Shown here piece by piece: positions 26,465 through 31,805 of a DNA stretch of 64,000 nucleotides. Location: the NCBI RefSeq assembly GCF_000226295.1, contig NC_016024.1, forward strand, positions 665,501 through 729,500, given 5' to 3'. Position 1 is the stretch's first letter. Every line of letters starts with the position of its first letter. The notes below the pieces were generated by a model. The model had not been told where the DNA came from. It did not search any database and saw only the letters and a list, made by a program, of their open reading frames with translations. Both the position numbers and the translations under genes were made by a program. The DNA comes from Chloracidobacterium thermophilum B (GTDB lineage Bacteria; Acidobacteriota; Blastocatellia; Chloracidobacteriales; Chloracidobacteriaceae).

Positions 26465-26824
26465 ATGACACCATTTGAGCATCTGACCAGCGCCGCTTTG
26501 GCGTGTTCGCACCAGCGGGCATTTGTCGGGGGCGTCGTCCAGCACCCACAAACCGGGAAGTTCCAGCTCTGGTTTTTGCCGACCGGACGGGACATTGAGC
26601 CACTGCGGGCTTACGAGTCACAGGCGCAGGCGGCCGCCAGCTATCACGCTTTGCGGCGCGCGTTTTCGAGCGGAAATCCAACCCGTCTGGCTGAAGCCTT
26701 TGCGGCTGTGTCGGCCACCGGTGAAGCCCCGGCGTCATTTCCGCCTGATTTTCTGGAACGCCTGCGCCTTGGCGTGCAGAAAGCGCTTGCGGCGCGTGGG
26801 ATCACCGTCTGTTTTGCACCGTAG
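26465..26824 (+). CDS. hypothetical protein, about 119 residues
   Basis: I do not recognise this protein. From ATG 26465 it reads MTPFEHLTSAALACSHQRAF, then a beta-type stretch FVGGVVQHPQTGKFQLWFLP, then helices (AQAAASYHALRRAFSSG and DFLERLRLGVQKALAARG). It has no signal peptide. The frame is open upstream to 26369 with other starts possible. Its 3' end overlaps the convergent PotB-like gene by 23 bp. Codon use matches the surrounding genes, which supports coding. Confidence 0.6.
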   Translation: MTPFEHLTSAALACSHQRAFVGGVVQHPQTGKFQLWFLPTGRDIEPLRAYESQAQAAASYHALRRAFSSGNPTRLAEAFAAVSATGEAPASFPPDFLERLRLGVQKALAARGITVCFAP

Positions 26825-27716
26825 CCGGTGGGCGTTGGAGGCGGGCGGTGACCTGGTTGATGACGACAGCCATCACCGCGACACCGGCCAGCAGCAGCAG
26901 CGTCACCGCCGCGCCAAACGGCTGGTTGCGCTGGAAAAACTGATTCCAGATCACATTGCCAAGCAGGATGCTTTTGGCGCCGCCAAGCAGATCGGCGACG
27001 ACAAAGTTGCCCAGGCTCGGAATGAACACGAGGGCGCTGCCGGCAATCAGTCCCGGACGCGACAAGGGAACGATGACCTTCCAGAACGTCACCCACGGCG
27101 TTGCGCCCAGGTCGGCCGCCGCATCGAGAAGCTGCCGGTCGAGTTTGTCGAGGCTGGCGACCAGCGGAATGATCATAAAGGGCAGTTCACCGGCGACGAG
27201 TCCGATGAACACGGCCAGGTCGTTGTAAAGCAGCGGAAGCGGCTCGCGGATGAGACCCAACCCAAGCAGCGCCGTGTTGATAATGCCCTCGGTACGCAGC
27301 AGATGTGTCCAAGCGAAGGTGCGTACCACAAGGCTCGTCCACAGCGGAATGACCGTCAGGGTCAGGAGCAGCGGTTTCCAGCGCGGCCTGACCTGGAAGG
27401 CCAGGAAAAGCGCCACGGGATAGCTGAGGACGATACAGACCAGCGTGACAACGACAGCCATCCAGAGCGAGCGCCAGTAAATGGCCAGGTACATCGGCTC
27501 CAGGGCCTGCCGGAAGTTGGACAGCGTCCACGTCCAGGCAATGTTGCCGTAGGTTGTGCGGCTGGCGAAGGACTGCCTGGCGACGATGACAAGTGGCAGG
27601 AAACCCAGGAGAAACAGCCAGATCGTGGCCGGCGCCAACAGTCCGGCCCGCCATGCGAAACGTTGCACCGTTGGCCTCGCTGACCTCCCGCAAACCTTTG
27701 CAAGATAAGGTGACAA
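26802..27716 (-). CDS. ABC transporter permease, PotB-like (spermidine/putrescine type)
   Basis: The 304-residue membrane protein has six hydrophobic segments and the permease EAA loop DAAADLGATPWVTFWKVIVP (about residues 198-217), followed by PGLIAG. FGYPVA-like VLSYPVALFLAF and IPLWTSLVVRTFAW match the PotB subfamily. No ATG is available at the N-terminus. TTG 27716, with AAAGGA about 10 nt upstream, is the likely start. The usual partners (ATPase PotA, second permease PotC, binding protein PotD) are not in the window, so this permease stands alone here. Confidence 0.88.
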   Translation of the reverse strand: MSPYLAKVCGRSARPTVQRFAWRAGLLAPATIWLFLLGFLPLVIVARQSFASRTTYGNIAWTWTLSNFRQALEPMYLAIYWRSLWMAVVVTLVCIVLSYPVALFLAFQVRPRWKPLLLTLTVIPLWTSLVVRTFAWTHLLRTEGIINTALLGLGLIREPLPLLYNDLAVFIGLVAGELPFMIIPLVASLDKLDRQLLDAAADLGATPWVTFWKVIVPLSRPGLIAGSALVFIPSLGNFVVADLLGGAKSILLGNVIWNQFFQRNQPFGAAVTLLLLAGVAVMAVVINQVTARLQRPPATVQNRR

Positions 27717-28060
27717 TGAAAGCTAATCCTTTTGCCCAGCGTTTGAAAAGCACAACCAGGTAAACCGTCAAGGGTGTACCGTTGGCTGGCTGTCTGCTGT
27801 TTCGGTGTTTGGGTGGGCACTGGGTGGTGTCGTGGCCGGCCTTTCTTACCAGAGCGTGGCTTGGTGCAGAGAGTCTTGCTGTTCTATAGCGATTTAATTG
27901 ACATTACTATTTCTTTCTGGCAAGCTGCCTTCAGAACAAGCTGCCTTCAGAACAAGCTGCCTTCAGAACAAGCTGCCTTCCCTTGTAGGTTAGGTAGCTT
28001 TCAATCCAGGAGATCAGCTTGTTCGTTGACCAATGCTTGTTCCAAAGGAGAACCTTGCCG
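27717..28060. other. A/T-richer intergenic region with tandem repeat
   Basis: This 344-bp gap separates the divergent PotB-like gene and the small exported-protein gene. It is visibly richer in A/T than its surroundings, holds a TTGACA hexamer (27898-27903) without a convincing -10 at normal spacing, and then a 16-bp tandem repeat. The one open frame across it is Cys-rich only because of the repeat and is not considered a gene. Confidence 0.5.
27921..27980. repeat. 16-bp tandem repeat, 3.75 copies
   Basis: The unit CAAGCTGCCTTCAGAA starts at 27921, 27937 and 27953 without mismatches, and a partial copy runs to 27980. It lies in the leader region 80-140 bp before the small exported-protein gene. 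I saw no other copy in the window. Confidence 0.95.
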
Positions 28061-28261
28061 ATGCAATCTGCAATGCGATTTGGATTGCTGCTTGTTATGA
28101 GCGTGTGGCTTTGTTCGGTCTCAGGGTTGGCAAGCACAGGCCCATCAGAATTGCCCAACCCATCAGAGCCATCAAAATCAGAGCCATCAAAAAAAGACAC
28201 CTGGCAAGTCGTTGGAGGCCAGGGTTGGAGGCTAGGGGAGGATACAACGCCGACCCTTTGA
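28061..28261 (+). CDS. small exported protein, zero-frame product
   Basis: ATG 28061 follows a strong ribosome-binding site (AAAGGAGA, about 10 nt). The 66-residue product has a signal peptide (MRFGLLLVMSVWLCSVSGLA), then a Pro/Ser/Lys spacer built from two PSEPSK-type repeats, and ends DTWQVVGGQGWRLGEDTT plus three residues. I recognise no family. A run of seven A in the form TCA AAA AAA (28187-28195) is a possible -1 slippery site. The -1 frame stays open to 28425 and encodes a Cys-rich tail, so this may be only the short form of a longer product, or the front of a broken gene. Confidence 0.6.
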   Translation: MQSAMRFGLLLVMSVWLCSVSGLASTGPSELPNPSEPSKSEPSKKDTWQVVGGQGWRLGEDTTPTL

Positions 28262-28425
28262 GCATAAATTGCCACATCGAATACTGGAGTGCTGAACAAT
28301 CTGGCAACTGCATAAGTTTCTTTGCCATCGTGAACTGTGGCACCTTTTTTGCGCCAGAAATTAGTATCTGTTCAGCCTCAGTCTGTTTTGGCAACCCGGG
28401 GTCTGTCACATTGATTTGTTCTTGA
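28189..28425 (+). other. candidate -1 frameshift site and Cys-rich extension
   Basis: The heptamer A AAA AAA at 28189-28195 is phased correctly for tandem slippage in the frame that starts at 28061. After a -1 shift the frame continues to a TGA at 28423-28425, giving a product of about 121 residues. Its last ~55 residues contain six Cys (for example INCHIEYWSAEQSGNC and VNCGTFFAPEISIC). The next gene starts 18 bp later. Alternatives are an indel pseudogene, or a shift nearer 28250, since the zero frame after the A-run also looks protein-like. Confidence 0.35.
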
Positions 28426-28443
28426 TAGGGAGGTGTTCTGAAG

Positions 28444-29256
28444 ATGAGACACATCAAAACTGGACTGTTTTTGTTGGCGGCAGGCTTTTTTCTCATTGGC
28501 ACCGGCGGTACGGCACTGGGGCAGCGCCGGGCTGTTGAACACCGTATGGAGATTCAGGTGACGAACCAGACGATTAATGTTGGGGAGCGGCTCACCATCC
28601 GAATTGACGGTGTCCAGCCGAATGACATGATTAACCTTGCCCCCAAGGAACAGACTACAGCCCAGGTTGCAGCCGGCATCATGGTGCCAGCGCCAGGACG
28701 TGTCACGACGCTGGGCATTGGCTCTACCTCACCGTTGCCCGATGGCGCTCTGTCCGTAACGCCATCTGAAGTACGCATCACGCGGGCCACGAACTGGACG
28801 GGCAACCTGTTCTTCCATGTTGATGTGCCGATGCAGACCCAGGTGACTTTGGTTATCAATGACCAGCCATTGCTCAACGCCAGGCTGTCCGCACCGGTTG
28901 CCTTCTGGCGGGAAGCCTTTCACCCAGGCTTCTCCATCGCCCCGGAGACCTTTGTGCGTGCTACCTTGCCAAACATTGACCGGGAAGAGCGGATTCGCCC
29001 GGAGGAGGAAGCCTATCGCGTGCCGCCCTCCAAGGTGCAGGTGCTCAAGCGGGTACTGCCGTCTTCCGACACGGCACGGGAGTTGCTGGTGGCTTTCCGC
29101 GTGAATGAGCAGGGGCAGGTGTTTGCCGCACACGTACTGACCCACGATCCCCAGGCTGCGGCGTATGCCGAAAACTTCAAGCAGTGGGTGTTTGCGCCGT
29201 ACGTCGTGGATGGCAAGCCCGTGCCTTTCCTGACGGTGATGAAAGTTTCGTTCTGA
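28444..29256 (+). CDS. exported protein with TonB-C-like C-terminal domain
   Basis: The 270-residue protein starts at ATG 28444 behind GGGAGG and has a signal peptide (TGLFLLAAGFFLIGTGGTALG). The middle (about 30-165) is beta-rich with no recognised family. The last 80 residues (ARELLVAFRVNEQGQVFAAH, then a WVFAPYVVDGKPV motif and a final beta strand) resemble the TonB/TolA C-terminal fold often seen in stand-alone Acidobacterial secreted proteins. No ExbBD genes are nearby, so it is not a classical energy transducer. It lies 18 bp after the possible extended form of the previous gene and ends before a hairpin terminator. Confidence 0.72.
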   Translation: MRHIKTGLFLLAAGFFLIGTGGTALGQRRAVEHRMEIQVTNQTINVGERLTIRIDGVQPNDMINLAPKEQTTAQVAAGIMVPAPGRVTTLGIGSTSPLPDGALSVTPSEVRITRATNWTGNLFFHVDVPMQTQVTLVINDQPLLNARLSAPVAFWREAFHPGFSIAPETFVRATLPNIDREERIRPEEEAYRVPPSKVQVLKRVLPSSDTARELLVAFRVNEQGQVFAAHVLTHDPQAAAYAENFKQWVFAPYVVDGKPVPFLTVMKVSF

Positions 29257-29575: not shown

Positions 29576-30652
29576 GTGAACTACATTGGTAGCAAGTTCT
29601 CGCTTCTTTCCTTTCTGGAAACGCACATTACGCAATTCTCCACGCCGGATTCGGGTTGGACATTTTTCGATATATTTTCGGGAACAGGCGTTGTCGGAAG
29701 GCACTTCAAAAAGCTTGGATTCCATATCGTCGCCAATGACATTCAGTATTACAGCTACTGTCTCAACCGGGCATACATAGGCATCAACTGCCAGCCAGGG
29801 TTCATTGGCATTGTGGAGCATCTGCCACAGCCGGCTGGTCTTTCGCAGTATGACGCCGTTGATGTCGTTCTGGATTATCTGAACAGGCTGACGGGAGTTG
29901 AAGGCTTCATTTACCGGAATTACTGTCCGGGCGGTACGGCCGGAAAAGATTTTCCCCGTCAATACTTCACAGACGAAAATGGAAAACTCTGTGACGCCAT
30001 TCGCCTTCAAACAGAAGACTGGCATCGGGATGCTTTCATTTCAGACGATGAGTATTTCTATCTGCTGGCCAGCCTGATTGAAGCCATGGACAAGGTTGCC
30101 AACACGGCTTCGGTCTATGGCGCGTTTCTCAAGCACGTGAAGCCAAGCGCACGCAAGCCGCTCCGGCTGGAAAGGCTTGAAATTATACCCGATAACAGGT
30201 TGCATCGAGTGTACAATTGCGACGGGGGCGAACTGGCAAGCAAGGTGCAATGTGACATTCTCTACATTGATCCTCCCTACAACCAGCGCCAATACTGCAC
30301 GAACTACCATGTTCTGGAAACCATCGCAAAATATGACCATCCACAGCTTTATGGCATTACGGGACTGAGGGACTACCGTCACCAGAAATCAGATTTCTGC
30401 AATTCTGCAAAGGCTCTTCAATCGCTTGAAAGGCTGATTCGGGAAACAAGTGCAAAATATGTCTTTCTGAGCTACAACAGCGAAGGTCTCATGCGTGAAG
30501 ATGAGATTATCAGGATGATGAGCCAATACGGGGTAGTGGACTTGAGAAAAGAGGATTACCGCCGGTTCAGAGCCGATATAGACCGGGAAAACCGCAGATA
30601 CCGGGCAGACAGTGTTACCGAGTACCTGTTTTGCCTGAAAAAGGCCAGGTAA
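29576..30652 (+). CDS. D12-class adenine-specific DNA methyltransferase (copy 1)
   Basis: The 358-residue protein begins NYIGSKFSLL, then has the SAM-binding motif FSGTG (residues 34-38) and the catalytic motif DPPY (232-235) within LYIDPPYNQRQY. The order FxGxG before DPPY is that of the alpha-class D12 (Dam-like) N6-adenine methyltransferases. The start is GTG 29576. The DNA is clearly richer in A/T than neighbouring genes, which points to later acquisition. A homologous methyltransferase gene follows after 58 bp in the same direction. The recognition sequence cannot be read from the sequence. Confidence 0.9.
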   Translation: MNYIGSKFSLLSFLETHITQFSTPDSGWTFFDIFSGTGVVGRHFKKLGFHIVANDIQYYSYCLNRAYIGINCQPGFIGIVEHLPQPAGLSQYDAVDVVLDYLNRLTGVEGFIYRNYCPGGTAGKDFPRQYFTDENGKLCDAIRLQTEDWHRDAFISDDEYFYLLASLIEAMDKVANTASVYGAFLKHVKPSARKPLRLERLEIIPDNRLHRVYNCDGGELASKVQCDILYIDPPYNQRQYCTNYHVLETIAKYDHPQLYGITGLRDYRHQKSDFCNSAKALQSLERLIRETSAKYVFLSYNSEGLMREDEIIRMMSQYGVVDLRKEDYRRFRADIDRENRRYRADSVTEYLFCLKKAR

Positions 30653-30710: not shown

Positions 30711-31805
30711 ATGATCAAGTACATCGGCTCCAAACGAACCCTCATCCCGCTCATTCTGGAAACCATCCGCCGGGCGACAAACGCCCGAACCGTTCTTGAC
30801 CCCTTTTCCGGGACGGCCCGCGTCGGGCATGCGCTCAAGGCAGCCGGCTACCGTGTGCTCTCCAACGACCACAATGCCTACGCCGCCGTCCTGGCGCGCT
30901 GCTACGTCCAGGCCGATGCCGAAGATGTCCTCGAAGACGCTCGCAAACTCGTCCGGGAGTTCAATGCCCTCAAAGGCACACCGGGCTATTTCACCGAGAC
31001 GTTCTGCATCCGGTCCCGCTTCTTCCAGCCCAAAAACGGCGAACGGATTGACGCCATCCGCGAAGCCATTGCCGCCAGGGGGCTTGACCCGGAGTTGGAA
31101 GCCGTCATGCTCGTCTCCCTGATGGAAGCGGCCGACCGCGTGGATTCCACGACCGGCGTGCAGATGGCCTATCTCAAAAGCTGGGCGCCACGCTCGTACA
31201 ACGACCTCGAACTGCGTGTCCCGAATGTGCTCCCGCGCGCCCGGTACGGCAAAGGGCAGGCCACCTGTCTTGATGCCCTCGATGCCGTCCGTCGCTTTGC
31301 GGCTGATGTGGCCTACCTTGACCCGCCCTACAACCAGCATTCCTATCTGGGGAACTACCACATCTGGGAGTCGCTCGTGCGGTGGGACAAACCCGAAGTC
31401 TATGGCGTCGCATGCAAGCGCGTGGACGTACGCCAGCGCCGCAGTGTCTTCAACGCCCGTTCCCGGTTTACGGCTGCCCTGCACACCCTGCTGACAGCCG
31501 TGCAGGCACCGATCATCATCGTGTCGTTCAACGATGAAGGTTACGTGACGCGCCAGGACATGGAAGCCATGCTGCGGTCGCTGTGGAACGGCGCCGGGCA
31601 GGTCACGACCATCGAGAAGGATTTCAAGCGGTATGTCGGGGCGCAGATTGGCATTTATAACCCACGTGGGGAAAAGGTGGGTGTGGTCAGCCATCTGCGG
31701 AACCGGGAATTTCTCTACGTGGCATCCCGCGAAGACCTTGCGCCGGCGCTGATGTCTGTCACGGCTGCACAGCATCGGCAGGGCTGGCTGTTCGGTGAAT
31801 CTTAG
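30711..31805 (+). CDS. D12-class adenine-specific DNA methyltransferase (copy 2)
   Basis: The 364-residue protein starts IKYIGSKRTLIPLIL, with FSGTA (residues 32-36) as the SAM motif and DPPY (204-207) in YLDPPYNQHSYLGNYH. It is homologous to the upstream gene product, sharing YIGSK and DPPYNQ plus NYH, but is GC-rich like the chromosome. This argues that the two genes diverged before arriving here or came separately. Two D12 enzymes in tandem are typical of systems that modify an asymmetric site, one enzyme per strand. No recognised restriction enzyme lies directly beside them. Start ATG 30711 follows a weak ribosome-binding site. Confidence 0.92.
   Translation: MIKYIGSKRTLIPLILETIRRATNARTVLDPFSGTARVGHALKAAGYRVLSNDHNAYAAVLARCYVQADAEDVLEDARKLVREFNALKGTPGYFTETFCIRSRFFQPKNGERIDAIREAIAARGLDPELEAVMLVSLMEAADRVDSTTGVQMAYLKSWAPRSYNDLELRVPNVLPRARYGKGQATCLDALDAVRRFAADVAYLDPPYNQHSYLGNYHIWESLVRWDKPEVYGVACKRVDVRQRRSVFNARSRFTAALHTLLTAVQAPIIIVSFNDEGYVTRQDMEAMLRSLWNGAGQVTTIEKDFKRYVGAQIGIYNPRGEKVGVVSHLRNREFLYVASREDLAPALMSVTAAQHRQGWLFGES

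Follow-up and report, generated by a model that had tools for sequence, protein, structure and literature searches.

Programmed -1 ribosomal frameshifting of the dnaX and insertion-sequence types is characterized by an X_XXZ_ZZN slippery heptamer, a Shine-Dalgarno-like stimulator 6-17 nt upstream, and a hairpin 4-10 nt downstream (PMC4066793). Genes split over two frames also include the frame-broken genes and pseudogenes of prokaryotes (fs-genes, PMC3711429), and changes in homopolymer length can underlie phase variation, an example being the poly-A run of Mycoplasma p78, a case we draw from its citation in that same source (PMC3711429).

Here, we compare with these systems a locus of the photosynthetic hot-spring bacterium Chloracidobacterium thermophilum B, located in a stretch of 64,000 nucleotides (C1:665501-729500 of a two-contig genome of 3,695,372 bases) that was analyzed as a whole (the window, whose positions are used throughout). 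We conclude that this locus is probably a frame-broken allele of a gene for a secreted Cys-rich protein, broken by small insertions. It would form part of a two-gene accessory module, in which the gene for a small exported Cys-rich protein is followed by that for an exported TonB_C-domain protein. The features on which this reading depends are as follows.

28042 to 28048, plus strand: AAAGGAG, the Shine-Dalgarno-like site of the signal-peptide ORF, assigned from sequence, at a spacing of about 12
28061 to 28261, plus strand: zero-frame ORF of 66 aa, with a signal-peptide-like N-terminus and a Pro/Ser/Glu/Lys linker, ending DTWQVVGGQGWRLGEDTTPTL-stop
28189 to 28195, plus strand: A7 run, which is A6 in the only orthologue (genome G004), a frame-changing difference in length
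28252 to 28425, plus strand: Cys-rich segment of the -1 frame (DPLSINCHIEYW...VTLICS-stop) with six Cys, a homologue of the mature region in the relatives' single-frame secreted Cys-rich proteins
28444 to 29256, plus strand: intact downstream gene of the same module; its product is 270 aa long, looks exported, and carries at its C-terminus a TonB_C-like domain that scores below the Pfam gathering cut-off

The initial annotation had proposed that a programmed -1 frameshift joins the signal peptide to the Cys-rich tail, and its observations on the sequence hold. The AAAGGAG site precedes an ATG at 28061, which in both the sequence and the ORF list opens an ORF with the hydrophobic, signal-like N-terminus MQSAMRFGLLLVMSVWLCSVSGLASTG; the A AAA AAA run is in phase with this ATG and fits the X_XXZ_ZZN pattern; and, while the zero frame stops at the TGA of 28259-28261, the -1 frame with its six Cys stays open as far as the TGA of 28423-28425, 18 bp before the ATG of the next gene (28444). 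Since the -1 frame is already open from 28033, its openness over the overlap is weak evidence. Codon usage scoring of the linker favored none of the three frames, because this region is A+T-rich for the genome. A search of the same genome with the signal-peptide ORF returned no convincing paralogue. We also considered a +1 site at CTT TGA (28256-28261), which resembles the prfB site, and rejected it: the +1 frame meets a stop shortly afterward and differs from the Cys frame.

The main evidence on how the two halves relate comes from other genomes. At eight loci in seven genomes that carry a relative of the TonB_C-like downstream gene, a single-frame ORF combining a signal-like N-terminus with a Cys-rich part lies directly upstream of that relative. 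These loci are in G034 (L032/L095), G160 (L033/L097), G039 (L035/L096), G013 (L038/L104), G028 (L090, L093), G041 (L103), and G093 (L102); L090 (G028:C28) is counted among them with a frame continuous with that of L103 and a start codon that is not clear. The Cys-rich ORF lies about 13 to 110 bp from the partner gene in the relatives, compared with 18 bp in the window, and the frame change is kept in none of them. Because all eight loci encode both halves in one frame before a TonB_C-like gene of the same kind, the two halves belong together, which supports the part of the earlier proposal that joined them as one secreted protein, here as putative parts of a single ancestral one. The annotation had itself named single-frame relatives, together with a different A count, as what would speak against a programmed shift; single-frame relatives were found, and a different A count was found in the orthologue G004.

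Judged from its relatives, we take the tail to be a real protein, its similarity to them being modest. Its Cys spacing (C-12-C-8-C-n-C-4-C-n-C) is common to three relatives (G034, G160, and G039), and SGNC and similar motifs recur in some members of this set of four. With a profile built from the three relatives only, the window tail ranks first of 1712 ORFs, but at an E value of 0.15; it outscores all but 4 of 5000 shuffles, and all but 36 of 5000 when the Cys positions are held fixed in the shuffles. For the remaining relatives, whose Cys counts differ, the relationship shows more in position and kind than in alignment. Weak profile matches occur in other genomes (E 0.009-0.1), while searches with the tail in phages and viral contigs, and a scan of genome contigs with the tail pattern, gave no match. 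From the single sequence, AlphaFold predicts a three-stranded sheet for the tail (pLDDT 83.7), with no significant match in the PDB (best E 0.12). Four of the Cys-rich relatives scanned against Pfam had no match, and two scanned against NCBIfam matched no model at the cut-off. The ungapped comparison of the G041 and G028 Cys-rich ORFs over 58 codons gives 7, 5, and 24 changes at codon positions 1, 2, and 3, respectively, a pattern indicating that the Cys-rich family is a real protein family under purifying selection elsewhere. This secreted family is undescribed.

In one genus (G040, G020, and G024), no clear Cys-rich ORF was found before the partner gene. Larger Cys-rich ORFs precede the partner gene in one genus (L036 39-770 and L096 798-1514, with 19 and 14 Cys), and one of them carries many short Cys-Gly repeats; these perhaps represent another kind of Cys-rich exported protein. 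In G034, a weak sigma-70-family protein (regions 2 and 4; L095 226-834, reverse strand) is encoded directly before the Cys-rich gene and is a possible regulator of the module.

The downstream partner gene keeps its own ribosome-binding site. Its product scores 17.8 bits against TonB_C (PF03544; E 0.0046), short of the gathering cut-off of 24.6, and a distant relative scores 21.2; such distant relatives are thinly spread across the class. The N-terminal 200 residues matched no Pfam family, the whole protein matched no NCBIfam family, and a scan of genome contigs with it gave no match. Its single-sequence AlphaFold model is poor (pLDDT 44.7). By sequence, the intact protein of the relatives is likely a small disulfide-bonded protein that acts with the TonB_C partner in the periplasm or outside the cell. 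The pairing is of some use in its own right: within one class of Acidobacteriota, several families encode a small exported Cys-rich protein immediately ahead of an exported protein of the TonB_C-like kind.

Among the seven genomes of the genus, the module is present in the window genome (G000) and in G004 and absent from the five others. From about 28045 to 29200, a handful of bases separate these two genomes; in the wider flanks they diverge by about 5%, with many patches. The module thus looks like a recently exchanged accessory element. The near-identity could instead reflect selection rather than decay, which would count against a broken gene; recent exchange explains it equally well. With A6 in place of A7, the zero frame of G004 runs through SKKTPGKSLEARVGG to a stop about 25 nt earlier than in the window, and a -1 shift there leads to DTWQVVGGQGWRLGEDTTPTL and a stop, the very ending of the A7 zero frame. 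In G004, the Cys tail is therefore out of reach of the zero frame and of a -1 shift alike.

Several other features of the neighborhood were recorded. Two adjacent genes resembling D12-class adenine methyltransferases adjoin the module (29576-30652 and 30711-31805), and the two kinds lie at separate places in other genomes of the genus. In G004, the C-terminal end of a transporter permease gene is present a second time in part (G004:C1:665852-665971), about 1.5 kb from the full copy, which corresponds to 26802-27716 in the window. Two further ORFs that are whole in the window genome (14414-17092 and 9250-10086) are split over two frames in G004, and we attribute these splits to indels or assembly errors in G004.

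The sequence in and around the gene is repetitive.

27921 to 27980, unstranded: 16-bp tandem repeat CAAGCTGCCTTCAGAA separating the module from the divergent transporter gene, 3.8 copies here and one extra in G004
28162 to 28192, unstranded: 15-bp in-frame tandem repeat (SEPSK SEPSK) that runs into the A-run
28211 to 28237, unstranded: 13-bp tandem duplication (GTTGGAGGCCAGG / GTTGGAGGCTAGG), of a length not divisible by 3, shared by G000 and G004 and a candidate primary lesion

Of the 16 tandem arrays found in the window, three fall within 320 bp at the Cys-rich gene, and the 16-bp array may be a variable-number repeat in a promoter region. A short near-perfect tandem duplication like the 13-bp one arose in 4 of 3000 shuffled linkers. 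The initial annotation had set an indel-broken gene against its own proposal; this competing reading proves the better one, given the single-frame relatives, the A6/A7 difference, and the 13-bp duplication, which the annotation had not named. Under such a break, small insertions in the repetitive linker would have thrown the Cys-rich mature part out of frame with the signal peptide and linker (28061 to about 28195), the candidate lesions being the 13-bp duplication and the one-base change in the A-run. Normal translation would then give a short exported 66-aa peptide that lacks the Cys part, and the intact downstream gene would be translated from its own ribosome-binding site. From the sequence, we infer that the insertions caused the break and that no full product is made; the Cys part of the window is probably not made at all. 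Being shared by the two genomes, the 13-bp duplication may be the older lesion, in which case the A-run would perhaps have changed in length later, in one lineage. Frame arithmetic by itself does not single out one ancestral state, and, since the linker has no alignable relative, the 13-bp duplication stays a candidate lesion only.

Before the frame-broken gene is accepted, other origins of the split have to be weighed. Roche 454 sequencing is known for homopolymer miscalls. The 2011 genome of C. thermophilum strain B is a Roche 454 genome from a non-clonal, non-axenic culture (PMC8245765), and, as the window genome is apparently this one, A7 may be wrong. A miscalled run in this assembly, and perhaps also in that of G004, could then hide an intact gene. 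The seventh A could indeed be an error, and the window has only five A7/T7 runs, the suspect site among them. However, among the homopolymer runs of at least five bases in the aligned region of the two genomes, 112 of 113 are equal in length, the A-run at 28189-28195 being the only one that differs, so neither assembly is generally poor at runs. Moreover, a single error would not suffice for both genomes, because the two assemblies give different run lengths and the frames are joined by neither. We therefore regard an intact gene behind a sequencing or assembly error as rather unlikely.

The same difference in run length between two nearly identical modules, flanked by clustered arrays of which the upstream one also varies in copy number, invites a reading as a phase-variable gene. 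The poly-A run and the short tandem repeats would act, through slipped-strand mispairing or transcript slippage, as a contingency switch for a secreted disulfide-rich protein beside its TonB_C partner in a free-living photosynthetic acidobacterium, and both genomes would be caught in the off state. Exported-looking products such as this one are the usual targets of phase variation (PMC3711429). Against this, 6-7 bases make a short run by the standards of contingency loci, and the 'on' allele is not seen, as both alleles compared are off. We hold such a switch to be unlikely; if the A-run does vary within cultures, the locus would be a rare contingency locus in a free-living phototroph.

A programmed -1 shift at the A AAA AAA heptamer, the central proposal of the initial annotation, fares worse. 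In addition to the phased heptamer, a 6-bp stem (CCUGGC/GCCAGG) begins 5 nt downstream, inside the 4-10 nt rule (PMC4066793). Yet no SD-like stimulator occurs in the 30 bases upstream of the heptamer, and the downstream hairpin has a z of -1.4, with 21 of 200 shuffles folding as well. Because G004 has A6, the -1 product is not available in the only orthologue, and the single-frame relatives need no shift. The predicted length of about 121 residues was correct as arithmetic, since a -1 shift would yield 121 residues, but the shift itself is unsupported. We consider it very improbable that the signal peptide and the Cys tail are joined in this way. The last alternative has one feature of its own.

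28235 to 28260, plus strand: possible coupled restart, GGGGAGGA (28235-28242) then TTG (28258-28260) overlapping the TGA stop, a weak rival

That ribosomes ending at this TGA restart at the TTG to make the Cys part as a separate peptide is scarcely credible despite the TTGA overlap and the GGGGAGGA 15 nt upstream, as the product would have no signal peptide, whereas the Cys part of the relatives looks exported, and as the overlap is not used in G004, where the zero frame stops too early.

Set beside the described systems, the locus resembles frameshifting of the dnaX and insertion-sequence types in its phased A_AAA_AAA heptamer and in a short stem-loop at an allowed distance (PMC4066793). It differs from them in that the A count is not the same in the only two orthologues, so that they do not conserve the shifted product, in that an upstream SD-like stimulator is absent, and in that the relatives need no shift; in addition, instead of giving two useful products, the shift would attach a mature part to a signal peptide. 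With phase variation of the Mycoplasma p78 type, as far as it is described where it is cited, the locus shares a poly-A run of differing length early in the gene of an exported protein and neighboring repeats that vary; here the run is short, and of the two alleles known neither is 'on'. The partner resembles TonB_C proteins (PF03544) in its C-terminal 55 residues, which align to the domain, and differs from them in falling below the cut-off and in the pairing of its gene with that of a small Cys-rich protein. With the frame-broken genes and pseudogenes of prokaryotes (fs-genes, PMC3711429), the locus shares relatives in one continuous frame, presence in few genomes, and a change of frame located at a homopolymer run or a short tandem duplication. 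Unlike them, it has an intact downstream partner, and the sister genome carries the whole module nearly unaltered. As a claim of frameshifting, then, the locus is ordinary, a gene frame-broken at short repeats.
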